From contig NJBM01000015.1 in assembly GCA_005223045.1 (NCBI GenBank), positions 62,001 to 126,000 on the forward strand: 64,000 bases of DNA, in the 5' to 3' direction. Below, one piece after another: positions 11,662 through 31,484 of this stretch (the first letter of the stretch is position 1; every line of letters begins with the position of its first letter). A program made the position numbers and the translations under genes. Source of the DNA: Planctomycetes bacterium B3_Pla. Its GTDB lineage: Bacteria > Planctomycetota > Phycisphaerae > Sedimentisphaerales > Anaerobacaceae. The notes below the pieces were generated by a model. The model did no database searches. It saw nothing but the letters and a program-made list of their open reading frames with translations, and was not told the DNA's origin.

Positions 11662-12284
11662 TTGCTCCGGCGCTCCCTTCTTATTTCAATAGACCTGAAG
11701 ATCCACGTCACCACGGCCAACGTGAAGAAGGCCCCCGGCGGCGCTACCATTATTATCCATTTGTCCCAGTAAGGCCCGCTGAAGTACGGCATCGCATGAC
11801 CCATAATCGTGCCCATTCCCATAAGCTCGCGGATCGTTGCGATTATCAAGAGCACAAATGAGTAACCGAGCGCATTAAACAAGCCGTCCAGAAACGCCTG
11901 CCTCGGCGGGCTGACGTTGCCGCACGCCTCACATCTGCCCATTACAATGCAGTTGGTGATTATCAGCCCCACATAAGGCCCGAGATTGGTGCTCATCTCG
12001 GGCCAGTACGCCTTGAGCACCAAATCGACGACTATCACATAAAACGCAATGATAAGCGTCTCAATCATCATCCGGATATTTCGCGGCGTGAACTTCCTCA
12101 GCAACGAGACTGTCGCCGCACTCAGAGACAGCGTAAACGCCAGCGCGACACACATTACCACGGTATTTAGCACAAGATTCGTCACGGCCAATGTGCTGCA
12201 TATACCCAACACCTGTCGGAATATTGGGTTGTTGTGCCATAGTCCGTCTGCGATGATTTTCCTGGTTTCCGATTTCATGCTCAC
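11658..12284 (-). CDS. nqrD: Na+-translocating NADH:quinone reductase subunit D
   Basis: Six-helix inner-membrane subunit, 208 residues, paralogous to NqrE. It carries the expected NqrD features: NPIFRQVLGICSTLAVTN near the N terminus and GLIITNCIVMGRCEACG with the conserved cysteines. The listed start is a GTG with a distant GGGGGAGG; an ATG two codons later (12278) is possible. It lies five bases from the end of nqrC and overlaps nqrE. Confidence 0.95.
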   Translation of the reverse strand: MSMKSETRKIIADGLWHNNPIFRQVLGICSTLAVTNLVLNTVVMCVALAFTLSLSAATVSLLRKFTPRNIRMMIETLIIAFYVIVVDLVLKAYWPEMSTNLGPYVGLIITNCIVMGRCEACGNVSPPRQAFLDGLFNALGYSFVLLIIATIRELMGMGTIMGHAMPYFSGPYWDKWIIMVAPPGAFFTLAVVTWIFRSIEIRRERRSK

Positions 12285-12289
12285 TGCAT

Positions 12290-12913
12290 CTAACCTCCCC
12301 CGCTGTCTTTAGCAAACTTCGAGCGCCAATCTGTCAATGCGTCGTTTAGTATCTTCTCCAATCTCGTGCTCGTCTGCGTCGCGCCTGTGACTGCGTGGAC
12401 ATCGCTTGTTCCCAATCCAGCACCCGGTATCTTCATATTGAGCGGTTTGTCGCCGGACGAGGCCACTTTGCCCCGGAACTGGCTGGTGAATGGGTCGGTA
12501 GTTATCTGCGCCCCGAGTCCGGGCGTCTCATTTTGCTCGTAGAAAGCTATCCCGGTAATCGTCCGAAGGTCCGCCCTTATGCCGATGACTCCCTTGATGG
12601 GAGCCCAAAACCCCTGGCCCTCAAACGGCAGCGCATAGGCAACAATCCGCCCCGCCTCTTTCAACGTACAAGCACCGCCTGACTGCTCGTCAGGCTCGCC
12701 GATACGCTCGACAAATTTTCTGTGCAACTGCAATCTGCTTTCATCGGCATCCAACAAACCGGGCAGAACGGCCAAAACCGCCTTTTCAAACGCGAGATAC
12801 TCATTGGCCTCTACCCTTGCACTTGTAAACTGAGAGAACCCGATTACTATCGAACTAAGAAAGGCTGTCACCGCGAACATATAGAAAACCGGAAACCACC
12901 ATTTCTCCCTCAT
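12290..12913 (-). CDS. nqrC: Na+-translocating NADH:quinone reductase subunit C (FMN-binding)
   Basis: A 207-residue subunit with one N-terminal membrane helix and a periplasmic FMN-binding domain. GAGLGTSDVHAVTGATQTS (about residues 164-182) contains the TGATQT flavinylation motif, where FMN is covalently attached to a Thr by an ApbE-type flavin transferase; apbE is not in this window. NETPGLGAQI is also typical of the family. The start ATG overlaps the nqrB stop by one base (TGATG). Confidence 0.93.
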   Translation of the reverse strand: MREKWWFPVFYMFAVTAFLSSIVIGFSQFTSARVEANEYLAFEKAVLAVLPGLLDADESRLQLHRKFVERIGEPDEQSGGACTLKEAGRIVAYALPFEGQGFWAPIKGVIGIRADLRTITGIAFYEQNETPGLGAQITTDPFTSQFRGKVASSGDKPLNMKIPGAGLGTSDVHAVTGATQTSTRLEKILNDALTDWRSKFAKDSGGG

Positions 12914-13956
12914 CAGTCTTCCCTCCCGGCAGCCTTGCTGCTTTTGTATGCCCGTACGGTGTAATCCAATATCGGGGCAAACATGTTCCCGATCAGAAGC
13001 GAGAACATCAAGCCTCCGTTGAAGATCGAGAAGTTCCTTATGATAGTTGCAAATACTCCGATCAGGATTGCGTAGATCACTTTGGCCTGCTCGGTCCTCG
13101 GGGCGCTGACCGGGTCGGTCGCCATGAAGAACGCCCCAAACAGAAAACCACCGCCCAGCACGGCAGGCAGAGCGCCAGGCACAGGCTCGACACCGAAAGC
13201 GTACAGAATTTGATTCAAAACCGCATACGTTATAACCAGAACGAGAATGATCGTCCTGCTCGCCGTCCTGGTCCAGAAAAGGTAGCCGCCCCCAATCAGA
13301 ATCAAGACCACACTTGTCACACCCATTGTTCCGCTGATCCGGCCAAACGCCAGTGCCTTGAGAAACGCCCCCCTGGTTACACGTTCAACCTGACCTTCGG
13401 TCACGTCCGTCGGCATTGTTGCGGCGGCGCCTTCCTGCAGGACGATTCTACCGGCTTTCAAATGGGCCATAGGCGTGGCGCTTGTCACGACATCTTCTTT
13501 TGCCGCCGTTGTCCATGCAGCCAGTCCCCCCCACGGCCCTGCCGCCGCCGGCACCCAGGTGGATGTCAGCGCAATGGGAAAACAAACGTAAACGAAACAC
13601 CTGCCCGCCATCGCAGGATTAAAGATGTTGCGCCCAAATCCGCCGAATACCTCTTTTGCGAAAGCCACGGCAAAAGCCACACCTATAGCCAGAACGTGCA
13701 GCGGAACCGTCGCGGGCATAATCAGGGCGAATATTGTGCTGGTGACGAAGACTGCTTCACTGACAGGTTCGCCTCGACGTCGTGAAAAGATAAACTCCAC
13801 GATGAATCCGACCAGCGCCGAGAAAAGCACCACAAAGAGGCATCGCCAGCCGAAGAAATATATGCTGCCGGCCACACAGGGCAGCAGTGCCATCATAACG
13901 CGCCGATTAACTGGTTGTCGTCTGAGGACCTTGGTAGGTCTCTTAGCCTGGGCCAT
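12913..13956 (-). CDS. nqrB: Na+-translocating NADH:quinone reductase subunit B
   Basis: The main membrane subunit, 347 residues with about ten helices, thought to form the Na+ path in Nqr. FGRNIFNPAMAGRCFVYV and FFMATDPVSAPR are NqrB/RnfD signatures. DVVTSATPMAHL holds the Thr (about residue 161) expected to carry covalent FMN. It is the first Nqr gene here. In most known nqr operons nqrA precedes it, but the gene upstream is rubrerythrin, 56 bases away. Confidence 0.94.
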   Translation of the reverse strand: MAQAKRPTKVLRRQPVNRRVMMALLPCVAGSIYFFGWRCLFVVLFSALVGFIVEFIFSRRRGEPVSEAVFVTSTIFALIMPATVPLHVLAIGVAFAVAFAKEVFGGFGRNIFNPAMAGRCFVYVCFPIALTSTWVPAAAGPWGGLAAWTTAAKEDVVTSATPMAHLKAGRIVLQEGAAATMPTDVTEGQVERVTRGAFLKALAFGRISGTMGVTSVVLILIGGGYLFWTRTASRTIILVLVITYAVLNQILYAFGVEPVPGALPAVLGGGFLFGAFFMATDPVSAPRTEQAKVIYAILIGVFATIIRNFSIFNGGLMFSLLIGNMFAPILDYTVRAYKSSKAAGRED

Positions 13957-14012
13957 AAATCATTTGCGCTCGCATAGAAAAACTATCCGTTGTTTCCTGT
14001 TACGAAAGGCTG

Positions 14013-14513
14013 TTATTCAACAGGCACGAACTTATCTTTGCTCGCGCCGCAAACGGGGCATGTACCGGGCACGTCTCCGGTTATTGTATTCCCACACACG
14101 CTGCAAACAAAAATCGGCCGGTCCGTCAGATCATTGCCTGCCGCAAGTGCCTCGGCAGCTTTACTAAAGAGGCCGAAATGCACCTCTTCTACAGTCATCG
14201 CATTCTGAAATGATGCCAGAGCAGCGTTGTTCTGCTCGGCCTGTGCCTGCTTGGCAAAGTCCGGGTACATGCTCTTGAACTCATAGCTTTCACCTTCCTT
14301 GGCCTCCTGCAGATTCTCCTTCGTGGATTTAACTCCGCCCAATACGCGCAGGTGTGCATGCGCGTGGACCGTCTCGGCCGCGGCGGTAGCACGGAAGAGA
14401 CGGGCGATCCCCGGGTAGCCCTCCGCGTCAGCCTTCTTCGCAAACGCCAGATAACGACGATTTGCCTGGCTCTCTCCCGCAAAAGCCTCCTTCAAGTTTT
14501 CTTCTGTTGCCAT
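14013..14513 (-). CDS. Rubrerythrin
   Basis: A cytoplasmic di-iron peroxide reductase, 166 residues. The ferritin-like N-terminal domain has the E…EAQ/ExxH-type ligands, visible as FAGESQANRRYLAF, AAAETVHAHAH and AMTVEEVHFGLF. A C-terminal rubredoxin domain has two CxxC pairs (CSVCG and CPVCG). Rubrerythrins remove H2O2 in anaerobes and microaerophiles. The gene sits 56 bases upstream of nqrB on the same strand and may share its transcript. An AAGGAGAT-type ribosome binding site precedes the ATG. Confidence 0.95.
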   Translation of the reverse strand: MATEENLKEAFAGESQANRRYLAFAKKADAEGYPGIARLFRATAAAETVHAHAHLRVLGGVKSTKENLQEAKEGESYEFKSMYPDFAKQAQAEQNNAALASFQNAMTVEEVHFGLFSKAAEALAAGNDLTDRPIFVCSVCGNTITGDVPGTCPVCGASKDKFVPVE

Positions 14514-15012: not shown

Positions 15013-15113
15013 CATAAGTCTTTCGCACGGGCTATTCGATTTGAAATTTAATCTCTGCTCGCCGGGACTGAATCTGAAATATGAAATTCCGTTTTTGGTC
15101 TCTGGAGAAAGAA

Positions 15114-16568
15114 ATGAAAAGACGGGAATTTATCGCCGCTACCGCAGCCGGTGCGGTCGGACTGATGCTGGAGCGCGAAACGTCCGCAACTGAAAGTCCG
15201 GGAAGAAAAAACAGGCCCAATATCCTTTTCATCATGACCGATCAGCAACATGCCGGCATGATGAGCTGTACGGGTAACAAGTGGCTCAAAACGCCCGCTA
15301 TGGATCGCCTCGCCGCATCGGGCATCAGGTTCGAAAGAGCTTACGCCTGTAATCCCGTCTGCGTGCCGAATCGGTTCAGTCTGCAAACGGGCCTTATGCC
15401 CAGCGCGATAGGGATGGGCCAGAACGGTGATTCCGCCCGGGCCACCGTGACTGACGAGATGATACGGCAATCGCTCGGCAAGCTTTTCAGAAAAGCAGGC
15501 TACGAAACCATCTACGGCGGCAAGGTCCACCTGCCCAGGAAGATGAAAGGTGTGCAGAACCTTGGCTATCGAAACCTGACCGGCGACTCACGCCAGGGAT
15601 TGGCCGATGCTTGCGCCGAGTTCCTCAAGGGACCGCACACAAAACCGTTTTTCCTCTTCGCCTCGTTCATCAATCCGCACGATATATGCTACATGGCGAT
15701 AAACGACTACAACCGCACACAGGACAAACCTCCAAAAGGCAACACGGACTCCAAAACCTGCGAGGCAGTACTGGATAGCGTGCGAAAGACGGGTGAAATT
15801 GACGCTTTCGTGGAGAAAAACTGTCCTCCGCTTCCGGCCAATCATGAAGTGCCCGAAGCTGAGCCGGAATGTATAGCACAGAAGTACATCAATCCGAGAC
15901 CTTTTCAGGCGTACACCCGCCAGAAGTGGACTGAGAATCAGTGGCGTCTGCACCGCTGGGCGTACTGTCGGCTGACCGAAATGGTTGACAGGGAAATAGG
16001 AACAGTCCTTGACGCCCTGCGCCAGGCAAAGCTGGAGGACAACACTCTGATAGTCTTCACCAGCGACCACGGCGACATGGATTCCGCGCACAGACTCGAG
16101 CACAAACAGGTTTTGTACGAGGAATCCGTGCGTGTTCCGTTCATAATGAGTTACGCCGGAGCAATTCCAAAGGGCAAAGTTGACAACAAGCATCTGGTCT
16201 CCAACGGCCTCGATCTTCTTCCGACCCTGTGCGATTACGCAGGCATAGAGGCTCCCGAAGGACTGCACGGCAGAAGTCTGCAACAATTGGCACAGGGAAA
16301 AGACGTTGAAAAATGGCGCGATTTCGTCGTCTCAGAGAGTCAGAGCGGAAGGGCGCTGCGGACAAGCCGCTTTAAGTACACTATTTACGACTCCGGCAAG
16401 AATCGCGAACAACTCACTGATCTCAGAAACGATCCGGGCGAAATGAAAAATCTCGCCGAACTCGACGGCTACAAAGACGTGTTGGCCAGACATCGTCAAT
16501 TGCTGCGAGAATGGGTCGAGAGAACCGGCGACAGGATTGCTGCCCAATATCTGAGCGCCGAAACGTAA
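15114..16568 (+). CDS. Tat-exported sulfatase (formylglycine-dependent)
   Basis: A 484-residue arylsulfatase-family enzyme. The start at 15114 gives a twin-arginine-like signal (MKRREFIAATAAGAVGLML) with GGAGAAAG upstream. The metal-site motif NILFIMTDQQ follows. The catalytic motif is CVPNR (residues 83-87, CxPxR), where the Cys must be oxidised to formylglycine. A second metal cluster is visible in VFTSDHGDMDSAHRLEHK. It is expected to hydrolyse sulfate esters of sulfated glycans or aryl sulfates outside the cytoplasm. The maturing enzyme is not obvious in this window: the SUMF1-like domain encoded at 21.2-22.1 kb lacks the classical Cys arrangement. Confidence 0.93.
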   Translation: MKRREFIAATAAGAVGLMLERETSATESPGRKNRPNILFIMTDQQHAGMMSCTGNKWLKTPAMDRLAASGIRFERAYACNPVCVPNRFSLQTGLMPSAIGMGQNGDSARATVTDEMIRQSLGKLFRKAGYETIYGGKVHLPRKMKGVQNLGYRNLTGDSRQGLADACAEFLKGPHTKPFFLFASFINPHDICYMAINDYNRTQDKPPKGNTDSKTCEAVLDSVRKTGEIDAFVEKNCPPLPANHEVPEAEPECIAQKYINPRPFQAYTRQKWTENQWRLHRWAYCRLTEMVDREIGTVLDALRQAKLEDNTLIVFTSDHGDMDSAHRLEHKQVLYEESVRVPFIMSYAGAIPKGKVDNKHLVSNGLDLLPTLCDYAGIEAPEGLHGRSLQQLAQGKDVEKWRDFVVSESQSGRALRTSRFKYTIYDSGKNREQLTDLRNDPGEMKNLAELDGYKDVLARHRQLLREWVERTGDRIAAQYLSAET

Positions 16569-17203: not shown

Positions 17204-17615
17204 CCGAATCCTCACAACATCCTTGAGTCAACCCGCTCCATTCGTCACGGCTGTTGTTTTCCAGCCACCCCCATCGAATCGAGGCGGCACGCCGCCCGGC
17301 AGAGGAGAAAAGTACAATGCTCTCTTTTCCCTTCCAGAGGCCATAGTACCGAGCTTAGCGCGTTTGTCACGAAGTTTTTGGGAGACTTTGCCCCGCCCGG
17401 AGGCCAGCGGTACGCTTCTAATTTTCCGCAGGTTGCAAAATGAGATGATTAACGTTAGAATGGTCTAAATCGAGCTGGCTCTGCCGATTGCGGGGCTGGC
17501 TGGTATGTGAGCTAAGTAGTTCTTTGTGAATGTAATTAGTGTGCTCTGGCAACGACTGGTCGTGTTTAAGCGACAACGTGCGCCTTACACAAGAGCCATG
17601 AAAGGAGAGATTGAC
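17204..17615. other. Intergenic stretch between divergent genes, no gene seen
   Basis: About 410 bases between the GNAT gene and the aldo/keto reductase. It should contain both promoters, but I cannot point to a convincing consensus pair. A reading frame at 17223-17468 has no recognisable domain or ribosome binding site. A TTAACGTTAG string occurs near 17447. Confidence 0.5.
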
Positions 17616-18560
17616 ATGGACAAACAACTTGTTTACCCAACAACCGAGAACAACAGCTACAGTCGAAGGCAATTCATCGGCACCGTTCTGGCCGGTACGG
17701 GCGCTCTTGTGGCCGGGCCGGGATGGCCAACGGCACAGGCGGCGAGAAAGTCCAGCCGTGCGCGCCAAGCTACAGACATTGTCACACTGGGCAAGAGCGG
17801 TATAAAGACCTCTCTGCTGGCCCAGGGAACGGGGTGGAACGGCAGCGCTCGCTCCTCGGCCCATACGCGCCTGGGCGAAAAGGCATTCGTCAAACTAGTG
17901 CGGCACAGTCTGGACAGGGGTGTCCGGTTCATGGACATGGCCGACCTCTACGGGGCACATCCTTATATGCGCACGGCACTCAAGGGCGTTCCCCGAGACG
18001 ACTACTCTATTCTGACCAAGATCTGGCCGCGAGAGGAGTTCTGGAATATGCCGTCCGGCGGGGCCAGTAAGGAGGTGGATCGCTTCCGCAAGGAACTCAA
18101 CACCGACGTGCTGGAAATCTGCCTGATCCACTGTATGCAGGACACCGAATGGCCTGAGACTTATAAGCGCGTGCGGGATGAGCTGTCTGAGATGAAGGAA
18201 AAGGGCGCGGTCAAAGCGGTCGGCGTCTCGTGTCACGACTTCGGGGCCTTGAAAGTTGCGGCCACTCATCCGTGGACCGATGTAGTTTTCGCTCGTATAA
18301 ACAACGTAGGCACCAAGGCCGCGATGGATGCGTCCCCCGAAGAGGTGGCGCCGGTGCTCAAACAGGCCCGGGCGAAAGGCAAGATCGTCATCGGCATGAA
18401 GATCTTCGGCGCAGGCAAGCTGACCAGTCCCGAGCAGAAAGATGCGTCCTTGAAGTATGTACTCGAAAATGAGCTGGTGGACGCCATCACTATAGGCATG
18501 ATGGAGCCTAAGGAGATTGACGATAGCATAAAGAGGGCAAACAAGGCTCTGAGGGTGTGA
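17616..18560 (+). CDS. Tat-exported aldo/keto reductase
   Basis: A 314-residue NAD(P)H-dependent oxidoreductase. The start at 17616 is fixed by AAGGAGAG at 17601; longer frames lack a site. The N terminus carries a twin-arginine signal (YSRRQFIGTVLAGTGALVAG). The barrel shows the aldo/keto reductase tetrad: Asp and Tyr in FMDMADLYGAHP, Lys in YSILTKIW, His in EICLIHCMQD. Exported family members occur in Planctomycetes and Bacteroidetes without an assigned substrate. It lies 130 bases upstream of the HzsA-like operon on the same strand. Confidence 0.9.
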   Translation: MDKQLVYPTTENNSYSRRQFIGTVLAGTGALVAGPGWPTAQAARKSSRARQATDIVTLGKSGIKTSLLAQGTGWNGSARSSAHTRLGEKAFVKLVRHSLDRGVRFMDMADLYGAHPYMRTALKGVPRDDYSILTKIWPREEFWNMPSGGASKEVDRFRKELNTDVLEICLIHCMQDTEWPETYKRVRDELSEMKEKGAVKAVGVSCHDFGALKVAATHPWTDVVFARINNVGTKAAMDASPEEVAPVLKQARAKGKIVIGMKIFGAGKLTSPEQKDASLKYVLENELVDAITIGMMEPKEIDDSIKRANKALRV

Positions 18561-18691: not shown

Positions 18692-21600
18692 ATGAAACTG
18701 ACGAAAACCAGCTTTAGAAACGGTATTCTCACCAGCCTCTTGTGCCTTGGTCTGATTCTATCGGTTTCAGGTTCGGCTGCGGCCGGGACGTCGGCGCTTC
18801 GCAACGATAATAAGATACGATACCTGCGCAACTTTGATTTCGAGCCACTTCGTCTGGCTATCGACGACCTGATCGAAACGTTCGGTCAGGGATACCCCAA
18901 CGGCTCCGAGTATCAGCAGCGTCTGGAAAGCCTGAGAACGGCACGCAAAACGGCGCTGGATTCCTTTGCTCAAGACGACGACTCTGCAAGAAACAATCTG
19001 CTGAGACTCAAGCACGATTTGGACAAGCTGTTGTACGATGCGCTGCTTTCCAACCCTCTGCTTGATTTTGACGAGTTGATACTGCTCAAGCGCAAGCGTG
19101 GCCAGCTCGGCCTGCCGGTCAACCACAAGTGCAACACGGGCATCGAGAGGACCGGCTACGACAACGAGATCGCTGTGCTGGGGCCGATTCGCCCGAATGG
19201 GAAGCTGAGAACGCTATACTGCCCTCCGGCCGGCGAGTTTGTGGGTGAATTCGACTTGAATTACGACGCAAAGAGAATGCTCTTTACGATGCCTACAGGA
19301 CCGACGTGGCAGATCTTCGAGATCAAAACCGACGGCACCGGCCTGCGGCAGGTCTCGCACGGCGAGCATCCGGATGTGGACAACTTTGACGCCTGCTATC
19401 TGCCCGACGGCAGGATAGTCTTCGTCTCGACCGCTTCATTCACCGCGGTCCCATGCTGGCACGGCAAAGAACGGGCGTGCAATATCTACCTGATGGATGC
19501 CGATGGCGGCAACGTCCGGCAGTTGTGTTTCGATCAGGACCTCGACCTTCACCCGGCGGTGCTGCCCACCGGCCAGGTGATTTTCAGCCGGTGGGACTAC
19601 ACCGGCCCCATGCACATTTACCTGCGTCCTTTGATGGCGATGAATCCCGACGGCACGGGCCAGCGGGCCGTGTACGGCAGCAATTCTTATTGGCCGAACG
19701 CGCTTTATTATCCGCGAGGAATACCCGGCGCGCCGGGCAAGATCATAGCGATAATCTGCGGATATCACGGGGTGCCTCGAATGGGCGAGCTGGGCCTGAT
19801 AGATACGACCAAAGGCTGGCAGAATGCCGAGGGCATCGTCCAGCGAATTCCCGGCCGGGGCAAACCCGTCAAAACGGTCATTCGCGACAACCTTGTTGAC
19901 AAATCGTGGCCCAAATTTCTGCATCCTTATCCGCTCAACGATAAATATTTTCTCGTAGCGGCCCAGCGTGCGCGTAAAGGGCCATGGGGAATCTACCTTG
20001 TGGACGTATTCGACAACATTCTGCCGATTTGCGTCCGGCCGGAATTCGATTTGTTCGAGCCTATTCCACTAAAGAAAACGCCTCGCCCCCCTGCTATTCC
20101 CGACAGGGTGGACCTGGCGCGTGACGATGCAGTCGTTTACCTTGATGATGTTTACGCCGGCCCGGGACTGGCAGGCGTGCCTCGCGGCACCGTGAAAAAG
20201 CTGCGGATTCTGGCCTACCATTACGGCTATCCCGGCATGGCCGGGCCTGACAAGATAGGCTGTGGAGGCCCATGGGAAGTGATGCGGATACTCGGGACGG
20301 TAGACGTGCACGAGGACGGCTCGGCGATGTTCCGCGTTCCGGCCAATACACCGCTGAGCGTGCAGCCGCTCGACGAGCAGGGAAAGGCGGTCCAATTGAT
20401 GCGAAGCTGGTTCTCGGCGATGCCGGGCGAGACCGTCTCCTGCGTCGGTTGTCACGAGCAGTCCAGGCAAATCCCCGTGCTGAGTCAAAGATCGGCCGCA
20501 GCGCGTCGGCCCGCTCAGATCGAACCCTGGTATGGCCCTGCAAGGGGTTTCGACTTTGAAAGAGAAGTGCAGCCGGTGCTCGACAAATACTGTGTCGGCT
20601 GCCACGACGGCAAGCCCCGCCCGGACGGTCGGAAGATTGCCGACTTACGTTCCGAGCGTTATGCCAGGAACTACCACGGACGCGAGCTTACGAAGCTGGG
20701 AGCAAATCGTTTGCATCCGGTGGTGCGCAAAGCGTTTGGAGGAACGAAGGTAAAGTACACACCCGCATACGAAGCGCTCGTACCTTATATTCGCAGGGTC
20801 AACGTCGAGGACCACGTCGGCTTGCTGGTCCCCGGTGAATATCACGCCGATACGAGCGAATTGATCCAGATGCTCGGCAAAGGTCATCACAATGTCCGGC
20901 TGGACGACGAAGCCCGGGACCGGCTCGTTACCTGGATCGACCTCAACGGCCCCTGCCACGGCACCTGGGGCGAAGTAGGCCCGATTCCCGACGGCGCCGA
21001 CCGGCGGCGGCTTGAATTGCGGCAACAATACAAAGGCCCTACGGAAAATCCTGAGGTTATTCCGAATATTGTGGAAAAGGCACTAAAGGGCAAAGGAGCA
21101 ATCGACAGGAAGAGGGACGAGATACGAGAGACGAAATACGTGGGACCAGACGTCCATCATCCGTCGTCCATCGTCCATCCATTGGGCCTTCGTTCCTCTG
21201 TTCCCTTGTTCAAGACTATCGAGGTGGACGGCGTGACGATGAAGCTGGTACGGATTCCCGCGGGCCGGTTCATCATGGGCGATCAGAATGGCCGGACCGA
21301 TGAACGACCGCTCTCGGCAGTCTCGATTGACCGCGACTTTTGGCTGGGCGCCTTTGAGATTACTAACAAACTATACCGTCGATTCGATCCCGGCCACGAC
21401 TCGGGATATTTTGCCAAGCGTTTCCAGGGCCCGGACGGCCCCGGCCTGTCACTTGCCGGGCCAGGCCAGCCGGCGGTTCGCATTTCGTGGCAGCGCGCTG
21501 TTGACTTTTGCCGCTGGCTTTCACGAAAGACCGGTATGAAGTTCACGCTGCCTACCGAGGCCCAGTGGGAGTACGCCTGCCGCGCCGGCTCGCAAAGCCC

Positions 21601-22093
21601 CCTGTCCTACGGCGATCTCGAGGCTGATTTCTCCCGATGGGCAAATGTTGCCGACGAGTCGCTGAGTGTCAGCCCGAAACCCACCGGCGGGCTGGAGTCA
21701 AACATAGTTGCGCATTTCGGCAAAGGTATTCTGGAGTCGGCTGTCTTCGGAGGAAATGTCCTCTGCGACATACGTTTTAACGACCATGCGGTAGCAACAG
21801 CGAACGTAGGCGGTTACCGATCCAACTCATGGGGACTTTATGACATGCACGGCAATGTGTGCGAATGGACGGCAACAACATATAAGCCGTATCCCTACAA
21901 AGCCGGAGATGGCCGCAACGGCCAAACCGAATCGGGCAGAAAAGTGGTCCGGGGAGGCTCATGGTGCGACCGTCCTGTACGATGTCGTTCGGCTTTTCGC
22001 TTGAGTTATCCTGCATGGCAGCGCGTTCATAACGTCGGATTCCGCGTTGTTTGTGAGATTGAATCGCAGGAGCACGAATATGCAGCTTTATAG
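18692..22093 (+). CDS. HzsA-like cytochrome c with beta-propeller, fused to a SUMF1-type domain
   Basis: An exported protein of 1133 residues. ATG 18692 begins a clear signal peptide ending near SGSAAAG. Residues about 170-430 contain PD40/TolB-like propeller blades (YDAKRMLFTMPTGPTWQIFE and repeats). The central part resembles the hydrazine synthase alpha-subunit family, with two c-type haem sites, CVGCH at 584-588 and CVGCH at 634-638. From about residue 840 a formylglycine-generating-enzyme (SUMF1) fold follows: RIPAGRFIMGD, LPTEAQWEYACRAG and VVRGGSWCDRPVRCRSAFR. The later Cys of the FGE pair is present but the first is displaced by one residue, so sulfatase maturation is doubtful. The linker (about 806-838) looks repeat-derived. 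It heads a four-gene operon. Confidence 0.85.
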   Translation: MKLTKTSFRNGILTSLLCLGLILSVSGSAAAGTSALRNDNKIRYLRNFDFEPLRLAIDDLIETFGQGYPNGSEYQQRLESLRTARKTALDSFAQDDDSARNNLLRLKHDLDKLLYDALLSNPLLDFDELILLKRKRGQLGLPVNHKCNTGIERTGYDNEIAVLGPIRPNGKLRTLYCPPAGEFVGEFDLNYDAKRMLFTMPTGPTWQIFEIKTDGTGLRQVSHGEHPDVDNFDACYLPDGRIVFVSTASFTAVPCWHGKERACNIYLMDADGGNVRQLCFDQDLDLHPAVLPTGQVIFSRWDYTGPMHIYLRPLMAMNPDGTGQRAVYGSNSYWPNALYYPRGIPGAPGKIIAIICGYHGVPRMGELGLIDTTKGWQNAEGIVQRIPGRGKPVKTVIRDNLVDKSWPKFLHPYPLNDKYFLVAAQRARKGPWGIYLVDVFDNILPICVRPEFDLFEPIPLKKTPRPPAIPDRVDLARDDAVVYLDDVYAGPGLAGVPRGTVKKLRILAYHYGYPGMAGPDKIGCGGPWEVMRILGTVDVHEDGSAMFRVPANTPLSVQPLDEQGKAVQLMRSWFSAMPGETVSCVGCHEQSRQIPVLSQRSAAARRPAQIEPWYGPARGFDFEREVQPVLDKYCVGCHDGKPRPDGRKIADLRSERYARNYHGRELTKLGANRLHPVVRKAFGGTKVKYTPAYEALVPYIRRVNVEDHVGLLVPGEYHADTSELIQMLGKGHHNVRLDDEARDRLVTWIDLNGPCHGTWGEVGPIPDGADRRRLELRQQYKGPTENPEVIPNIVEKALKGKGAIDRKRDEIRETKYVGPDVHHPSSIVHPLGLRSSVPLFKTIEVDGVTMKLVRIPAGRFIMGDQNGRTDERPLSAVSIDRDFWLGAFEITNKLYRRFDPGHDSGYFAKRFQGPDGPGLSLAGPGQPAVRISWQRAVDFCRWLSRKTGMKFTLPTEAQWEYACRAGSQSPLSYGDLEADFSRWANVADESLSVSPKPTGGLESNIVAHFGKGILESAVFGGNVLCDIRFNDHAVATANVGGYRSNSWGLYDMHGNVCEWTATTYKPYPYKAGDGRNGQTESGRKVVRGGSWCDRPVRCRSAFRLSYPAWQRVHNVGFRVVCEIESQEHEYAAL

Positions 22094-24191
22094 CATAAGA
22101 TTACGTATTGTGGTTATAGTCTCCGGGCTTGTGTGTCATGCGGGCCTGGTCACGAATCCGACAACCAACGCCGCCACGTCGGAAGAAGTCTTCGACTACT
22201 TTTCCAACAACTGGAACGTCATCGGCCTGAAGGATTACGTCCACGGCAGCCGAGTCACACCGGACAATGAGGTGCTGCTGTCGGGCAAGGTGCCGATACA
22301 GATCCGTCTTGGAAGCAAACTTACACCTCTTAGCCGGGCACACTCCAAACTGGCGATGCATGGCTGGATGCCCATTATGCTGGTTGTCGCCACGGACGGA
22401 CCGATCCGCTACGAGATTACCTTATGGGCCACGCCGCTGCCGGACGTACGAGACTTCAAGAAAGCATTCGACTGGCCGACTGAAGGAGAGAACTTCCTCT
22501 GTTGGATTCGGGTCAAAGCCATCAATACATCCGATACGACCTCGGAGGCGAAGGTCGAAGTGGGCCCGACACCAAACGAGAAGCTGCCGGAAGGATTCGC
22601 AGAGCAGCAGGCCGAACCTGCAAGCGAGGGACGTCACACCCGCACTCATTCATGGTCGTGGTCCCTCGAAGCCGGGCAGAGCGCCTTAAAGACGGCGCGG
22701 TATCCCTTTTTTCCAGTGGAAGATCCGGAGATTTATGATAGGGAGGATGCCGAAGTATGGCTGCAGCGCACGCAGGATTTCTGGCGGACTATGGTCACCG
22801 AACGGACCACACACATCGAAGTGCCGTGCCGCAAGGCTACAGAGGCACTCATGGCCTCCCATGTCTGCCAACTGATTGCCAATGACCACGGCGAACTGCG
22901 CGGGGGCGAGAACTTCTACGACCGGTTCTACCCCCGTGACGGAGCCTACCAGGTAATGGAGTTAGAGGAAGCCGGCTTGTTCGAACCGGCCCGGCAGGCG
23001 ATGGAGCATTTTCTCAAGTGTCAGGCCGAGGACGGTCGTTTTCATGGCGGCGGCAACCAGGTCAAGCAGCTCGACGCCAACGGACAGGCTACCTGGGCCT
23101 TGTGGCAGTACGCCAAGATCACGGGCGACCGGCAGTTCCTGGAGCGGGCCTATCCCTGCATGTTGCGCGCCATGCGCTGGGCTATGCAGGCCCGCCGTCA
23201 GGCTGCGGGCGACTCGGCCTTTGCCGGTTTGCTGCCCAACGCTCCGGCTGACGGCGAGTGCCTCTGGGACGGCAAGTACCATATTGTCGGATACGATTTG
23301 TGGAACCTGCGTGGTATGATGTGTACAGCGGATGCCGCAGGGGTCCTGGGAAGGGAGGACGACAGGAAGGAGCTGCTTGCCGAGATCAAAGATTACCGGG
23401 CCGCCATTGATGCCGCATTGAAACGTACAGGCCTTGCGCATTTTCCTCCGAGCTGGGAAAAGCTCGGCACACACTGGGGCAACACTGAGACGCTGTGGCC
23501 CACGGAGCTGTTCGAACGAAACGATTCGCGTGTCGATGCGCTGATCCGGCATGTCCGTGAGGACTTCGCCGGGGGATTCATCGAAGGGACGATCCAGTGG
23601 AAAGGCACGGGAAACGTCAAGGCCATTCACCCCTACATGGGCGCCTACACTATCATGGCGGATCTGGTGCGAGGCCGGGACGAGCAGGTCGTGCAGGACT
23701 TCTACTGGTATCTGCTGCACTCGACAGCAAGTCATGCGTTCCCCGAAGGCATTTTCTACGAAAAACGCATGGCCTGGAGTCATACGATTCCACACGTTAC
23801 CGGCGCTTGCAACTATGCAATCCTGCTCCGCCACATGCTGGTCCACGAGACGGCCGATGAACTGCATCTGCTTTCGGCAATTCCTGACTGGTGGCTGGGC
23901 GAGGGCCGGGAAATACGCATCGAGCGGGCGCCGACCCACTTCGGCCAAATGAGCATGGTTGTTCGGGGCGCGGCCGGCGGCGTAATCGTCGATCTGTCGG
24001 CCCCGAAACGCCGGCGCCCCCGGCGGATCGTCCTTCACCTGCCGGCATCCCGGCCACTGGCACGGCCCCTCCCGAACGTGGAGGTCATCACGCGCCCTGA
24101 CCAGTCAAGACGGTGGGATTTTCCGGCCGTTGTGGCCCTCTACTCCAAGATTGCCGAGGGGGATACAACAAGCACGCAACCGACCGATTAG
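22080..24191 (+). CDS. Exported six-hairpin (alpha/alpha toroid) glycosidase-like protein
   Basis: A 703-residue protein starting inside the end of the previous gene, with GGAG before the ATG at 22080, so translation is probably coupled. It has an N-terminal signal peptide (VVIVSGLVCHAGLV). The centre is a helical toroid of the GH15/GH63/amylo-glucosidase kind: FYDRFYPRDGAYQVMELEEA, then KCQAEDGRFHGGGNQV and NGQATWALWQYAKITGDRQF. The Asp and Glu residues in these loops fit an inverting glycosidase, but I cannot assign family number or substrate. The C-terminal part is a beta-rich domain. Context with exported cytochromes and a sulfatase suggests processing of an extracellular glycan. Confidence 0.75.
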   Translation: MQLYSIRLRIVVIVSGLVCHAGLVTNPTTNAATSEEVFDYFSNNWNVIGLKDYVHGSRVTPDNEVLLSGKVPIQIRLGSKLTPLSRAHSKLAMHGWMPIMLVVATDGPIRYEITLWATPLPDVRDFKKAFDWPTEGENFLCWIRVKAINTSDTTSEAKVEVGPTPNEKLPEGFAEQQAEPASEGRHTRTHSWSWSLEAGQSALKTARYPFFPVEDPEIYDREDAEVWLQRTQDFWRTMVTERTTHIEVPCRKATEALMASHVCQLIANDHGELRGGENFYDRFYPRDGAYQVMELEEAGLFEPARQAMEHFLKCQAEDGRFHGGGNQVKQLDANGQATWALWQYAKITGDRQFLERAYPCMLRAMRWAMQARRQAAGDSAFAGLLPNAPADGECLWDGKYHIVGYDLWNLRGMMCTADAAGVLGREDDRKELLAEIKDYRAAIDAALKRTGLAHFPPSWEKLGTHWGNTETLWPTELFERNDSRVDALIRHVREDFAGGFIEGTIQWKGTGNVKAIHPYMGAYTIMADLVRGRDEQVVQDFYWYLLHSTASHAFPEGIFYEKRMAWSHTIPHVTGACNYAILLRHMLVHETADELHLLSAIPDWWLGEGREIRIERAPTHFGQMSMVVRGAAGGVIVDLSAPKRRRPRRIVLHLPASRPLARPLPNVEVITRPDQSRRWDFPAVVALYSKIAEGDTTSTQPTD

Positions 24192-24204
24192 ATCAGAAAT
24201 CACA

Positions 24205-26781
24205 ATGATGCAAAGCAAACAACAAAGGACAATGTATCTTTTCCTGCTCACAGCTTGTGCAATGCTCGCAGCTCTCTGCCACCCGTTATATGCCGGCAAG
24301 ACACAAAGTATTGAGAAGCGAAGCAACAAAAAAGATACCTGGCAACAGGCCATGCTCACCTCGCGAGAGAGATTTGCCAAATCGCAGGACAAGTCGGACA
24401 TACAAAAGCGTATATACAGGCAGATCGAAAGTGAATTCCCGATCGAATGGGACTGGATGAGCCAGGATAGCGGAGCGAACGTTTACAAGTGGTTCGCCAA
24501 TTCCTCGGACACCGAGATTGAGCAGAAGATGATAAGAAAGGCCCTGTCGGAACTTGGCCCGGCCGGTAGGAAACTTGCGGACGACTTGCGGCAGCTTTGC
24601 CAATCCGGGGCATCTGGCGGCGACCGACGATGGTTGGATCTGTACGTCAGGGTGTGTGAAAAACGACGCGGGATCCGTCTCAGGCCGTTGCTCCGGAGAT
24701 TCAATAAGATCGTCTTTACAAAGCACTTCAACATGGGAGGCTCGCACTACGCTTATACCGAGGCCCAGTCCGATGCGCAGCACGAGCGAAACTTTGTGCC
24801 TGGCTCGGCCCTGTGCCTGCTGGAAATGAAGGGCAATTACGGCAGCGTGCGCACGCTGATCGACGATCCCAAAGGCGTAATCCGCGACCCGGACGTTTCC
24901 TTTGACGGCAGGCGAATTCTCTTTGCCTGGAAGAAGTCGGATCTCCGGGACGATTACCATCTCTACGAAATGGACGTCGAGACTCAGCGCGTGCGACAAC
25001 TCACTTTCGGCCTTGGCTTTGCCGATTACGAAGGGGCTTACTTACCAAACGGCGATATCATCTTCAATTCCACCCGGTGCGTGCAGATTGTCGATTGCTG
25101 GTGGACCGAGGTCAGCAACCTCTATACATGCGACAAAGACGGCAAATATCTGAGGCGGCTGACCTTCGACCAGGTCCACACAAATTTCCCAACCGTCATG
25201 GCCGACGGCCGGGTGATCTACACGCGATGGGACTACAACGACCGCGCTCAGATTTACCCGCAGGGGCTTTTCCAGATGAATGCGGACGGAACGGCCCAGG
25301 GCGAGTATTACGGCAACAATTCATGGTTTCCCACGACGATCCTTCATGCTCGCGGCATACCCGCAAGTCAAAAAATCGTTGCCGTGCTTTCGGGGCATCA
25401 CACGCATCAGCGGGGAAAGCTCGCGATTATCGACAATCGCAGAGGCAGGCAGGAGGCCTCGGGAATAGAACTGATAGCCCCCGTTCGCAAGGCCGAAGCT
25501 GTCCGCATCGACGCCTTCGGCCAGAGCGGGGAGCAGTTTCAGTATCCATACCCGCTGAGCGAGAAGGAATTTCTGGTAACTTATGACCCTCAAGGCAGCG
25601 GCAACAAGCGATACGTTCGTCCGTATGCCATCTATTTCATGACAATCGACGGCCGACGAGAACTTCTCGCATCCGATCCGAAAATATCATGCAATCAGCC
25701 TATCCCGCTTGTCGCGAGAGAGAGGCCCCGTGTTCATCCGAGCCATGTGGACTACCGCAAGAAGACGGCGGTCTATTACATTCAGGATATCTATGTCGGC
25801 CAGGGACTCGCGGGTATCGCCCGCGGTACGATCAAGAAACTTCGCGTCATTGCATTGGACTTTCGCGCGGCAGGTATCGGAAGAACTTCCAACAAGGGCC
25901 CGGGCGGTGGAGCTTTATCCAGCACTCCCGTGGGTGTGGGCAATGCCTGTTGGGACGTCAAGACAGTTTTGGGCGATGCGACAGTTTATGAGGACGGCTC
26001 GGCCTTGTTCGCCGTTCCGGCACGGACACCTGTTTACTTTCAGGCTCTCGACGCGAAAGGACACATGGTACAAACCATGCGGAGCTGGTCCACTTTGCAG
26101 CCCGGGGAGACCTTCTCGTGCATAGGCTGTCACGAGAACAAGAACGAAGCACCCCCAATCGGGCGGACAACGCTGGCGCTGGAATCGGGGCCGCAGTCAC
26201 TCGAACCTTTCTACGGTCCGCCGCGAGGCTTCAGCTTCGACAAGGAAATTCAGCCGATACTCGATCGCCACTGCATCGAGTGTCATACGGGTCGTAAGGA
26301 GCAGGCTTTCAGTCTGCTGGCCAATCGCAGGACCACCAAGGAATCCAAGCGAAGGTGGAGTGTTTCATATCTGGCCCTGACGGATGCCGAGCCAGTGGAA
26401 AAAGAAGGCGAAGTGCTCTATTATAAGGGCAACCCGGACGGTAAGTTCGTCAACTGGATCAACACAATGTCGGTTCCGACGATGCTGCCGCCCTACTATG
26501 GGGGCGCTGCCAGGAGCCGGCTTGTCACCATGCTGGAGCAGGAGCATGAGGGCGTCAAACTGTCGCGCGAAGAGATGGACAAGATCGCCTGCTGGATCGA
26601 CCTGGTCGTGCCCTACTGCGGGGATTATACGGAAGCCAACGCATGGTCGGCTGAGGAAGTGCGAAAATACGAGCATTTTCTGGCCAAACGAAAACACATG
26701 GAGCAAATCGAGCAGAAGAATATCGAGGAATTCACAGCGGCCAAAGCCAACGCAGGATTGATTGCTGCAGAGGAAAGATAA
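24205..26781 (+). CDS. HzsA-like diheme cytochrome c with beta-propeller
   Basis: An exported protein of 858 residues and a paralogue of the first gene of this operon, without the SUMF1 domain. ATG 24205 begins a signal peptide (YLFLLTACAMLAALCHPLYA). The propeller region shares blades with its paralogue (NADGTAQGEYYGNNSWFPT and RWDYNDRAQIYPQGLF). Haem sites are CIGCH at 639-643 and CIECH at 690-694. The C terminus is a charged helix. It resembles the hydrazine synthase alpha subunit, but there is no hzsB/hzsC partner, so it more likely serves as an envelope oxidoreductase or electron-transfer protein. Its stop overlaps the next start by one base. Confidence 0.82.
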   Translation: MMQSKQQRTMYLFLLTACAMLAALCHPLYAGKTQSIEKRSNKKDTWQQAMLTSRERFAKSQDKSDIQKRIYRQIESEFPIEWDWMSQDSGANVYKWFANSSDTEIEQKMIRKALSELGPAGRKLADDLRQLCQSGASGGDRRWLDLYVRVCEKRRGIRLRPLLRRFNKIVFTKHFNMGGSHYAYTEAQSDAQHERNFVPGSALCLLEMKGNYGSVRTLIDDPKGVIRDPDVSFDGRRILFAWKKSDLRDDYHLYEMDVETQRVRQLTFGLGFADYEGAYLPNGDIIFNSTRCVQIVDCWWTEVSNLYTCDKDGKYLRRLTFDQVHTNFPTVMADGRVIYTRWDYNDRAQIYPQGLFQMNADGTAQGEYYGNNSWFPTTILHARGIPASQKIVAVLSGHHTHQRGKLAIIDNRRGRQEASGIELIAPVRKAEAVRIDAFGQSGEQFQYPYPLSEKEFLVTYDPQGSGNKRYVRPYAIYFMTIDGRRELLASDPKISCNQPIPLVARERPRVHPSHVDYRKKTAVYYIQDIYVGQGLAGIARGTIKKLRVIALDFRAAGIGRTSNKGPGGGALSSTPVGVGNACWDVKTVLGDATVYEDGSALFAVPARTPVYFQALDAKGHMVQTMRSWSTLQPGETFSCIGCHENKNEAPPIGRTTLALESGPQSLEPFYGPPRGFSFDKEIQPILDRHCIECHTGRKEQAFSLLANRRTTKESKRRWSVSYLALTDAEPVEKEGEVLYYKGNPDGKFVNWINTMSVPTMLPPYYGGAARSRLVTMLEQEHEGVKLSREEMDKIACWIDLVVPYCGDYTEANAWSAEEVRKYEHFLAKRKHMEQIEQKNIEEFTAAKANAGLIAAEER

Positions 26782-28673
26782 TGAGCAGGAACAAGAACGG
26801 ACTGACTTCGTTTGCAATAGTGTTGACAATGACGTCGTGCCTGGCAATGGGCGGGATTGCCCCGGCGCAGGAGTATCTCTCGCCGGCGGCGGTCGTCGCA
26901 GACGCGCAAGGCAAGACGTTATACATAGCCGAGACCACGGCAAAACAGGTCGCGATATTCGACACAGAGACGGCAAAGGTCACGGCAACAATCGACGTCG
27001 GCGCAGAGCCGACCGGACTCGCCCTTACCGACGACGGAACACTACTCTATGTCACCTGCGGGGTTCCGGACGGACGTGTTTGCGTTATCAAGACCGATAC
27101 CGGCAAAATCACAAGGCAGTTTCCGGCCGGATACGGCGCACAGTCTCCGGTGCTCAGCCCAGACGGCAAAACTCTCTATGTATGCAACCGCTTCGACGAC
27201 GATATTTCGATGATAAGCACTGAGCTGGGCAAGCAGATGAAGAAGATCCCCACGTTGCGCGAGCCTGCGGCTGCCGATATTACGCCTGACGGGAAATGGC
27301 TTTTCGTCGGCAATCATCTTCCTCACGGACCGGCCAACGGCGACTCAGTCGCCTGCAACGTCTCAGTAATAGACGCCGGGAGATCGGCCTTTGAAATCGA
27401 CATCCCCCTGCCGAACGGGAGCACGGGGCTTCAGGACATTGCTGTCTCGCCGGACGGCACGTTCGTATTTGTCTCGCACATTCTCGCTCGATATACCGTC
27501 CCGACCACGCAGTTGGAGCGGGGCTGGATCAATACGAACGCCGTCAGCATCATAGACGCCAGATACAGAACGCTGATGGAAACCGTTCTCCTGGATGACG
27601 TCGATCATGGCGCGGCCAATCCGTGGGCCGTCGCCTGCACAAGCGACGGCAAACTCCTCTGTGTTACCCACGCAGGAACGCATGAGCTCAGCGTAATAGA
27701 AATGCGTCCCCTGATCGATAAAATCTTCGCCCATCATCGCCGCAACAGGATTCAAAGCGAAAGATCCAGAGGAGGCTCCTACTCGTCATACAGTTACGGC
27801 AACACAAACGCCTCGAATATTCCCAACGAGCTGAGCTTCCTCTACGGCGTTCGAGAACGTATCAAGCTGCCCGGCAAAGGCCCACGATCACTGGCTATCA
27901 TCGGGCGTAAAGCCTACGTCGCGGAGTACTTCACCGACAGCATGGCCGTGGTGGATATCAGCGAGGATTCGAGGCACAAGACTTCCTCCGTTGCCCTCGG
28001 GCCGAAGAACCCAATGACGGCCGAGCGAAGGGGCGAGATGCTCTTCAACGACGCCCTGCTCTGCTTTCAAAGCTGGCAGAGCTGCGCGAGCTGTCACCCC
28101 TCAGATGCCCGGGTGGATGCGTTGAACTGGGACCTGCTCAACGATGGGCTGGGAAACCCGAAGAATACCAAGAGCCTGCTGCTCTCACATGAAACGCCAC
28201 CGGTCATGATTACAGGCATCCGTGAGAATGCCGAGATAGCAGTGCGAGCGGGATTCAGGCATATCCTTTTTGCGGTCCGCCCGGAAGAAGAGGCCGCCGC
28301 TATTGACGAGTATCTAAAGTCGCTCAAACCGGCTCCAAGCCCTCATCTGGCCGGCGGCAAACTCAGTGCCTCAGCCAAGCGGGGACAAGGAGTATTCAGC
28401 AAGGCGGGCTGCTCTTCATGTCATACAGGACCGCTGTACACGGATTTACAGAAATACGACGTAGGCACGGGCAACGGATTGGACAGGGACCGGCAGTTCG
28501 ATACGCCGAGCCTTGTTGAAGCCTGGCGAACAGCCCCGTATCTTTACGACGGGCGTGCGGCCACTATTGAAGAAGTGCTCACAACATACAACCCCGACGA
28601 CAAGCATGGAACTACGTCAAAGTTGACTGATAGCGAAATAAAGGATTTAGTTCAATTCGTTCTTTCACAATAG
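26781..28673 (+). CDS. Exported YncE-like beta-propeller with C-terminal diheme cytochrome c domain
   Basis: A 630-residue protein starting at the last base of the preceding stop (TAATG). After a signal peptide come about 350 residues of YVTN/YncE-type propeller blades (GAEPTGLALTDDGTLLYVTC, SPDGKTLYVCNRFDDDISMI). From about 410 a cytochrome c peroxidase/MauG-like diheme part follows, with CASCH at 435-439 and CSSCH at 544-548, and conserved FDTPSLVEAWRTAPYLYDGR, typical of that family. Such fusions are thought to oxidise small molecules or post-translationally modify proteins in the periplasm. It is the last gene of the operon and a natural electron partner for the two HzsA-like cytochromes. 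Confidence 0.85.
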   Translation: MSRNKNGLTSFAIVLTMTSCLAMGGIAPAQEYLSPAAVVADAQGKTLYIAETTAKQVAIFDTETAKVTATIDVGAEPTGLALTDDGTLLYVTCGVPDGRVCVIKTDTGKITRQFPAGYGAQSPVLSPDGKTLYVCNRFDDDISMISTELGKQMKKIPTLREPAAADITPDGKWLFVGNHLPHGPANGDSVACNVSVIDAGRSAFEIDIPLPNGSTGLQDIAVSPDGTFVFVSHILARYTVPTTQLERGWINTNAVSIIDARYRTLMETVLLDDVDHGAANPWAVACTSDGKLLCVTHAGTHELSVIEMRPLIDKIFAHHRRNRIQSERSRGGSYSSYSYGNTNASNIPNELSFLYGVRERIKLPGKGPRSLAIIGRKAYVAEYFTDSMAVVDISEDSRHKTSSVALGPKNPMTAERRGEMLFNDALLCFQSWQSCASCHPSDARVDALNWDLLNDGLGNPKNTKSLLLSHETPPVMITGIRENAEIAVRAGFRHILFAVRPEEEAAAIDEYLKSLKPAPSPHLAGGKLSASAKRGQGVFSKAGCSSCHTGPLYTDLQKYDVGTGNGLDRDRQFDTPSLVEAWRTAPYLYDGRAATIEEVLTTYNPDDKHGTTSKLTDSEIKDLVQFVLSQ

Positions 28674-30437: not shown

Positions 30438-31484
30438 ATGAAAGCATTTCGTTCGCCATCCAATCCTATAATTGAGCCGAAGGATGTGAGGCCCTCAAGG
30501 GACGATTTTGAAGTTATCGGCGTCCTTAATGCCGGCGTCACTCGTTTTGAGGATGAGGTCATTCTGCTTCTCCGGGTCGCGGAAAGACCGATCAACAAGA
30601 ACCGGGACGTCGTGTTGACTGCCGTATATGACGTTGTCGAAGACAGGCTCGTCACAAAGGAATTTTCAAGGGCCGATCCGGAAACCGATTTCTCAGACCC
30701 CAGGTTAATAATAAGGCGGGGGCAAACTTACTTGACATCTATTTCGCATTTGAGGCTGGCGAGCAGCAAAGACGGTATCAACTTTAAGATTGAAGATACC
30801 CCGACGATTTCGGCAGCGGACGAATGTGAGACGTTTGGCGTCGAAGACCCCCGGATAAGCCTGATCGACGGCACATACTACATCAATTACGTCGCCGTTT
30901 CTTCCCTTGGAGTCACAACCTGCCTGATATCAACGAAGGATTTCACATCATTCCACCGTCACGGCGTCATTTTCTGCCCCGAGAACAAGGATGTGCTGCT
31001 CTTTCCCGAAAAAATCGGCGGTAAATTCTATGCCTTGCACAGGCCTGTTTCCCCCCTGTTCAAGAAACAGGATGTATGGCTCGCAGACTCGCCCGATCTC
31101 GTGGCCTGGGGGAACCATCGTCATCTTTTCGGACCGCTGAAGGGTACCTGGGATGAAGCGAAGGTCGGCGCCGGCGCTGTGCCGTTCAGGATTGAGCAAG
31201 GCTGGCTTGAAGTCTATCATGGCGTGGATCGAGACAATCGTTATTGTCTCGGTGCAGTATTGCTGGACGGAGAACAGCCGTGGAAAGTCCTGGCAAGGTC
31301 GAAACACCCGATCCTGGAACCAGAGACCGACTATGAATGCGAAGGTTTTTTTGGGAACGTAGTCTTTAGCTGTGGGCTGCTCCGCGAAGACGACACGCTC
31401 AGGATTTATTACGGCGCGGCCGACACCACTATCTGCTACGCAGAGCTGTCTCTACAAGAGACCCTTGAGGGCCTGAACTTGTAG
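30438..31484 (+). CDS. GH130-family glycoside phosphorylase / hydrolase
   Basis: A 348-residue cytoplasmic protein with no signal peptide, of normal length for the family. It is a five-bladed propeller enzyme: GVLNAGVTRFEDEVILLLRV near the N terminus and the catalytic-Asp motif FGVEDPRISLIDGTYYINY, followed by late blades (FFGNVVFSCGLL and LRIYYGAADTTICYA). GH130 enzymes phosphorolyse beta-1,4- or beta-1,2-mannosyl linkages, giving mannose-1-phosphate, and some are hydrolases. The exact linkage cannot be read. It appears to be a single-gene unit. Confidence 0.92.
   Translation: MKAFRSPSNPIIEPKDVRPSRDDFEVIGVLNAGVTRFEDEVILLLRVAERPINKNRDVVLTAVYDVVEDRLVTKEFSRADPETDFSDPRLIIRRGQTYLTSISHLRLASSKDGINFKIEDTPTISAADECETFGVEDPRISLIDGTYYINYVAVSSLGVTTCLISTKDFTSFHRHGVIFCPENKDVLLFPEKIGGKFYALHRPVSPLFKKQDVWLADSPDLVAWGNHRHLFGPLKGTWDEAKVGAGAVPFRIEQGWLEVYHGVDRDNRYCLGAVLLDGEQPWKVLARSKHPILEPETDYECEGFFGNVVFSCGLLREDDTLRIYYGAADTTICYAELSLQETLEGLNL

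Follow-up and report, generated by a model that had tools for sequence, protein, structure and literature searches.

A complete hydrazine synthase-like subunit set in a planctomycete genome, probably an exported multihaem redox complex with a different reaction

Hydrazine synthase (HZS) is the signature enzyme of anammox bacteria and, to our knowledge, was long believed to have no relatives; the locus described here raises the question of what HZS-like genes encode in Planctomycetes bacterium B3_Pla. The locus lies on contig NJBM01000015.1, in a stretch of 64,000 nucleotides (positions 62,001 to 126,000, hereafter the window). An earlier note on this DNA, made from the sequence alone, had described four tightly packed plus-strand genes, all with signal peptides, and CxxCH haem sites at 584/634, 639/690 and 435/544. 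The coordinates were reproduced from the open reading frames (ORFs): gene 1 (alpha1) and gene 2 overlap by 14 bases, gene 2 is followed by gene 3 (alpha3) after a gap of 13 (or 16) bases, and gene 3 and gene 4 (betagamma) overlap by 1 base (Table 1). Signal-peptide-like N termini were recognised on all four proteins by inspection of the sequence and all six CxxCH positions were right; the CxxCH pairs are not due to chance, because they are kept in alignments of more than 40 homologues. The reading favoured here is that the products of genes 1, 3 and 4 probably form an exported multihaem redox complex that has HZS architecture but carries out a different reaction.

The locus was found to encode a complete HZS-like subunit set (alpha, beta and gamma homologues) with two alpha-like proteins, because gene 4 matches both beta and gamma while gene 3 has the HZS alpha fold. 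Gene 4 matches NF052342 (fused HzsB-HzsC) over its full length with an expectation (E) value of 7.5e-44 (150 bits), and sequence comparison with PDB entry 5c2v gave matches to both chain B (E 4.9e-31) and chain C (E 9.2e-25). The best PDB match of its AlphaFold2 model (predicted template modelling score, pTM, 0.82) was 5c2v_B (Z 41.6, root-mean-square deviation (rmsd) 2.4, 336 residues; next match 36.8), in an alignment covering the propeller alone (residues 31-397), the HzsC-like dihaem assignment being sequence-based. The earlier description of gene 4 as a YncE-dihaem protein was thus correct as far as it went but missed the HzsB-HzsC homology (NF052342, 5c2v_B, 5c2v_C), and the statement that no hzsB or hzsC is present holds for true anammox genes and not for homologues, as gene 4 matches both. 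Gene 4 also gave CCP_MauG and cytochrome c matches in Pfam (PF03150, E 1e-8), which would favour a rather unlikely alternative in which the locus encodes separate exported electron-transfer or peroxidase-like proteins and no HZS-like complex. Gene 4 would then be a MauG/cytochrome-c-peroxidase-like enzyme that carries a propeller of its own, and its operon partners, genes 1 and 3, would be dihaem binding or electron-carrier proteins. Among PDB entries, however, HzsB and HzsC are closer to gene 4 than MauG or CcP are, and the alignments indicate that the HzsB tunnel-loop insertion is retained, nearly invariant, in gene 4 and its homologues. A nearly invariant extra cysteine of gene 4, Cys428 (window 28062-28064, in LCFQSWQSCASCH), lies seven residues before the first haem Cys; it could either pair in a disulfide or, like gammaCys165 in HZS, provide a third bond to the haem.

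Both alpha-type proteins carry the HZS_alpha domain PF18582 (Pfam; E 2e-32 for gene 1 and 9e-34 for gene 3), and gene 3 matched 5c2v_A in sequence comparison (E 2e-9). The earlier note had proposed modelling the HzsA-like proteins, and the predicted model of gene 3 (pTM 0.83) carries the full HZS alpha fold from the propeller through the C-terminal haem domain (5c2v HZS alpha: Z 34.0, rmsd 3.2, 569 residues), the next matches being TolB propellers at 26.5. Each part of the set thus keeps the haem motifs of its HZS counterpart and, where modelled, its predicted fold. The C terminus of the gene 1 product is an FGE-like domain (PF03781, E 6e-44). When gene 1 orthologues were aligned at the reference active-site Cys positions, the first Cys was found only in the window copy (orthologues have Arg, His, Gln, Tyr, Phe or Trp) and the second was not kept. 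An active sulfatase-modifying enzyme, the role such a domain might have suggested, was ruled out by these residues, and the domain is probably a ligand- or protein-binding one.

The presence of all three subunit types, together with an octahaem HAO-family protein elsewhere in the host genome (G000; L249:4872-6296, i.e. G000:C20:42871-44295, an ORF of 474 amino acids with 8 CxxCH), could be taken to mean that the host is an anammox-like organism that has gone unrecognised, with a true hydrazine synthase or another enzyme that forms N-N bonds. Key HZS residues, as given in PMC12758564 and PMC12607021, were compared in alignments which included the HzsA, HzsB and HzsC proteins of four genomes whose HZS genes scored high in the profile search. 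AlphaTyr591, the proximal ligand of haem alphaI in HZS, is replaced by Arg (gene 1) or Asn (gene 3). AlphaCys303 of the HZS Zn site, which according to PMC12758564 is also absent from Scalinduaceae, is Asn in both. The place of gammaHis144 is taken by Ile in gene 4, and the segment holding gammaCys165 (the third haem bond) and gammaAsp168 is deleted. BetaGlu253 of the tunnel loop corresponds to Gln244 (numbering offset taken from the 5c2v sequence and structure matches), and this Gln is invariant in a 31-sequence alignment. In HZS, haem alphaII is bis-His ligated through alphaHis772; the nearly invariant His780 of gene 3 sits one residue off the aligned place of that His, which MAFFT put in a gap. 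Because the haem alphaI motif is an ordinary CxGCHE and Tyr591 is absent, haem alphaI of the window proteins is most likely His-ligated in the usual way, unlike in HZS. Furthermore, no gene in the host genome scored above the NCBIfam cut-offs of 800 bits (HzsA) and 1250 bits (HzsBC), the best single stretches falling far below at 98 and 139 bits (profile searches, on which all genome-wide statements here are based). As the HZS-defining residues are absent, hydrazine synthesis from NO and ammonium by the window set is unlikely; residues and cut-offs rule out a true anammox hydrazine synthase, and the N-N forming alternative as a whole is highly improbable. PMC12758564 likewise judges its clades I-III not to be hydrazine synthases.

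Linkage of the alpha and betagamma genes was assessed within the host genome and across other genomes. The host genome contains 22 HZS_alpha genes and three betagamma-type genes (two CxxCH in each of the copies on C15 and in the window, ten in the copy on C1), and 3/3 of the latter adjoin an alpha gene, an adjacency expected by chance at about 3% per betagamma gene and about 3e-5 for all three; chance falls far short of explaining how often the two gene types lie together. A genome-contig scan yielded at least 581 relatives of gene 4, of which the best 80 were kept; Planctomycetota, Verrucomicrobia, Kiritimatiellae, Lentisphaerae, Hydrogenedentota, Omnitrophota, Armatimonadota and Bryobacteraceae were among the groups represented. 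Neighbours were counted at 102 betagamma loci, largely de-duplicated; opposite-strand neighbour clusters overlapping betagamma were treated as shadow ORFs and ignored, and counts are minima owing to contig ends. An alpha gene lay on the betagamma strand, no more than 600 bases away, in 51/102 loci, an FGE-fused alpha in 26/102 and both kinds in 12/102, and the alpha(FGE)-alpha-betagamma core unit is therefore a recurrent one. The co-occurrence in related genomes on which the earlier note had made its module depend was consequently observed for the HzsA-like and YncE-dihaem genes, but not for the glycosidase.

In one assembly of the window's family (G451), alpha3 and betagamma were found to be fused in a single ORF of 1497 residues with four CxxCH (L109:7002-11495), which is 57% identical to gene 3 and 50% identical to gene 4. 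Since both are one polypeptide in G451, the fusion argues that alpha3 and betagamma bind to each other as a physical complex. In the alpha tree, 20 FGE-fused alphas formed one clade (SH-aLRT 100, quick method), and seven gene 3 orthologues formed its sister clade, all sampled members of which lie in modules (SH-aLRT 100). In both the alpha and the betagamma tree, anammox sequences grouped with C1-type clusters, away from the window clade. A second HZS-like cluster type in the host genome (L080, G000:C1:302294-308578), clade I-like and consisting of a ten-CxxCH betagamma gene and an alpha gene, is closer to anammox HZS than the window cluster in both trees.

In the favoured complex, the docking of alpha3 on the beta propeller would place haems alphaI and gammaI on the same internal passage, with the conserved PTTQLERGW loop guarding it. 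A small molecule would be converted at one open haem and completed at the other, and haem gammaII would act as the electron port, trading electrons with a soluble cytochrome c. Because HZS is dimeric (PMC12607021) and the alpha1 clade is sister to the alpha3 clade, it may be speculated by analogy that the dimer is a mixed one, in which alpha1 stands where a second alpha3 would be.

Several points weigh against this complex. About half of the betagamma genes at the 102 loci have no adjacent alpha gene, and 18 alpha-like paralogues in the host genome lie away from any betagamma gene, so that alpha proteins can act without a nearby partner. Gene 4 has Ile in place of both the gammaI His of HZS and the peroxidase Trp, and catalysis at gammaI is therefore not assured. 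The fusion was seen once, in a single genome assembly, the mixed dimer is speculation, and the complex is predicted here from genes and from models of single proteins. The many betagamma genes without an adjacent alpha and the many lone alpha genes are also what separate electron-transfer or peroxidase-like proteins would lead one to expect; the G451 fusion and the 3/3 linkage in the host genome speak against such separate proteins.

The earlier note had further linked the redox proteins to glycan cleavage through gene 2, taken to be a six-hairpin glycosidase. Family support for this assignment, whether as an MGH1/GH63-, a GH15- or a GH65-like enzyme, is weak, as PF22422 (MGH1-like) was matched with an E value of 0.003 and 17.8 bits against a cut-off of 27, with the protein below Pfam cut-offs at relaxed E too; further matches were to 7qsj (E 8e-5) and TIGR01577 (E 9e-8). 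Glycan-directed oxidation, in which the haem proteins, the glycosidase and the sulfatase encoded upstream would work together on a polysaccharide, would be in keeping with that sulfatase and with the GH130 gene downstream of the module. Sulfatase-like genes were also found near betagamma in 14 loci (15/19 copies on the same strand, a raw count), and a related glycosidase lies beside betagamma in one other locus, L191. Most loci, however, have no sulfatase in the gene chain, the FGE domain is non-catalytic by its residues, and a glycosidase adjoins betagamma in just 2/102 loci. It is also missing from the closest relatives: in L158, from a Phycisphaerae metagenome-assembled genome with genes 77, 79 and 84% identical to those of the window (84% for gene 4, whose nearest relative this is), the end of alpha1 (7423) and the start of alpha3 (7431) are separated by a gap of 7 bases that leaves no room for a glycosidase, and L161 likewise has none between its alpha genes. 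Among the genomes of the class, the homologue nearest to gene 2 (G337, 64% identical) shares its contig with a sodium:solute symporter gene, and that contig carries no alpha gene. As the closest relatives have no glycosidase and 2/102 loci have one adjoining betagamma, gene 2 is a local insertion, a passenger glycosidase; its membership of the module was ruled out over 198 class genomes and the 102 loci. The coupling of redox chemistry to glycan cleavage does not survive these counts, and glycan-directed oxidation is an unlikely role for the haem proteins.

A different partner was observed in other genomes. A chorismatase-like gene lies within 600 bases downstream of betagamma in 30/102 loci, mostly within 250 bases (for example L193:5501-6679, L186:11919-13109 and L105:11546-12769); its product, of approximately 390 residues and without an evident signal peptide, is related to the FkbO/Hyg5 chorismatases (Rid superfamily). 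This partner is not mentioned in the available parts of PMC12758564. A radical-SAM gene was found near betagamma in five loci (L167, L176, L194, L216 and L234); the L176 member, the only one tested, is AhbC, a haem-pathway enzyme, and a NirDL-like gene was also found in L176 and a HemA-like gene in L194. Neither a chorismatase-like nor a radical-SAM gene lies beside gene 4 in the window, and the chorismatase-like and ahbC-like genes of the host genome are on contigs other than those of the C37 and C15 modules.

In a wider and tentative interpretation, alpha1-alpha3-betagamma would be an enzyme in which a tunnel couples two haems for a small-molecule reaction not yet discovered. It would be widespread in the Planctomycetes-Verrucomicrobia-Chlamydiae (PVC) group, Hydrogenedentota, Omnitrophota and Acidobacteriota and tied in many genomes to a chorismatase-like cytosolic partner, with anammox HZS as one specialised branch. 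Linked and sometimes fused full subunit sets in several phyla offer a route to the role of the ancestral enzyme before anammox. The unit is small enough to be expressed and assayed, and purification would be easier with the naturally fused alpha-betagamma protein.

The coordinates of the module and of its surroundings are given in Table 1. Subunits of an Rnf/Nqr-type complex and rubrerythrin are encoded further upstream (window 11658-14513, minus strand), which fits an anaerobe.

Table 1. Features of the HZS-like locus and neighbouring genes (window coordinates; aa, amino acid positions).
Feature	Position	Strand	Details
Sulfatase, upstream context	15081..16568	+	PF00884, E 2e-45
Aldo/keto reductase, upstream context	17526..18560	+	PF00248; twin-arginine (SRRQF) signal
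Gene 1, alpha1	18692..22093	+	Exported HzsA-like dihaem protein with C-terminal FGE/SUMF1-like domain, 1133 aa; ATG at 18692
HZS_alpha middle domain, gene 1	20186..20458	+	Ends at haem alphaI CxxCH, aa 584-588
Second CxxCH, gene 1 (haem alphaII position)	20591..20605	+	aa 634-638
FGE-like domain, gene 1	21242..22051	+	Catalytic Cys pair not conserved in orthologues
Gene 2	22080..24191	+	Exported MGH1-like glycosidase-like protein; local insertion
Gene 3, alpha3	24205..26781 (start 24205 or 24208)	+	Exported HzsA-like dihaem protein
Haem alphaI CxxCH, gene 3	26119..26133	+	aa 639-643
Haem alphaII CxxCH, gene 3	26272..26286	+	aa 690-694
Gene 4, betagamma	26781..28673	+	Exported fused HzsB-like 7-bladed propeller and HzsC-like dihaem domain
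Sixth-blade loop, gene 4	27492..27542	+	YTVPTTQLERGWINTNA; Gln244 at the betaGlu253 place (alignments)
Haem gammaI CxxCH, gene 4	28083..28097	+	aa 435-439
Haem gammaII CxxCH, gene 4	28410..28424	+	aa 544-548
GH130 beta-1,4-mannooligosaccharide phosphorylase gene, downstream of module	30438-31484		

Literature searches found PMC12758564 (Hagglund et al. 2025) as the sole direct prior work. There, co-located alpha and fused betagamma homologues are described in Planctomycetota and others (clades I-IV, with two such clusters in Anaerohalosphaera lusitana), key residues are reported absent, and complex formation is proposed with no function given. The exported redox system of HzsA-like cytochromes and a YncE-dihaem protein that the earlier note had called uncharacterised therefore stands as a system, but such clusters had already been described. 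The window cluster most likely belongs to the published clade IV, an assignment made from the published description and from our own trees, not from the authors' sequences; the betagamma tree sets the window apart from the ten-haem clade I-like type, and no FG-GAP or ABC gene was found among the ORFs scanned at 11.6-31.5 kb. Added here to that work are the unit with two alphas, one of them FGE-fused, the fusion of alpha to betagamma, the chorismatase-like partner gene and the finding that the glycosidase lies outside the module, although some of these may be in parts of that paper other than those available.

Compared with known systems, the window resembles the clusters of PMC12758564 in its co-located HzsA-like and fused HzsBC-like genes, the lack of an FG-GAP gene and the missing HZS residues, and differs in its two different alphas, one of them FGE-fused, and in the inserted glycosidase. 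Gene 4 shares with MauG and di-haem cytochrome c peroxidase a dihaem domain with two CxxCH, but the conserved Trp is Ile, and the domain is nearer to HzsC, with an HzsB-like propeller attached. The C terminus of gene 1 belongs to the fold family of FGE/SUMF1, but its Cys pair is not conserved and it is fused to a dihaem protein. With anammox HZS (5c2v), a dimer of alpha-beta-gamma with a two-haem tunnel design (PMC12607021), the window set shares the subunit folds, the CxxCH pairs of alpha and of gamma, and a 7-bladed propeller with a loop insertion, and beta and gamma are fused in Scalindua HZS as they are in gene 4. Unlike anammox HZS, it is without the active-site residues, has two alphas per betagamma, with the alpha genes upstream and not downstream of betagamma, and carries an extra helical region at the N terminus of gene 3.

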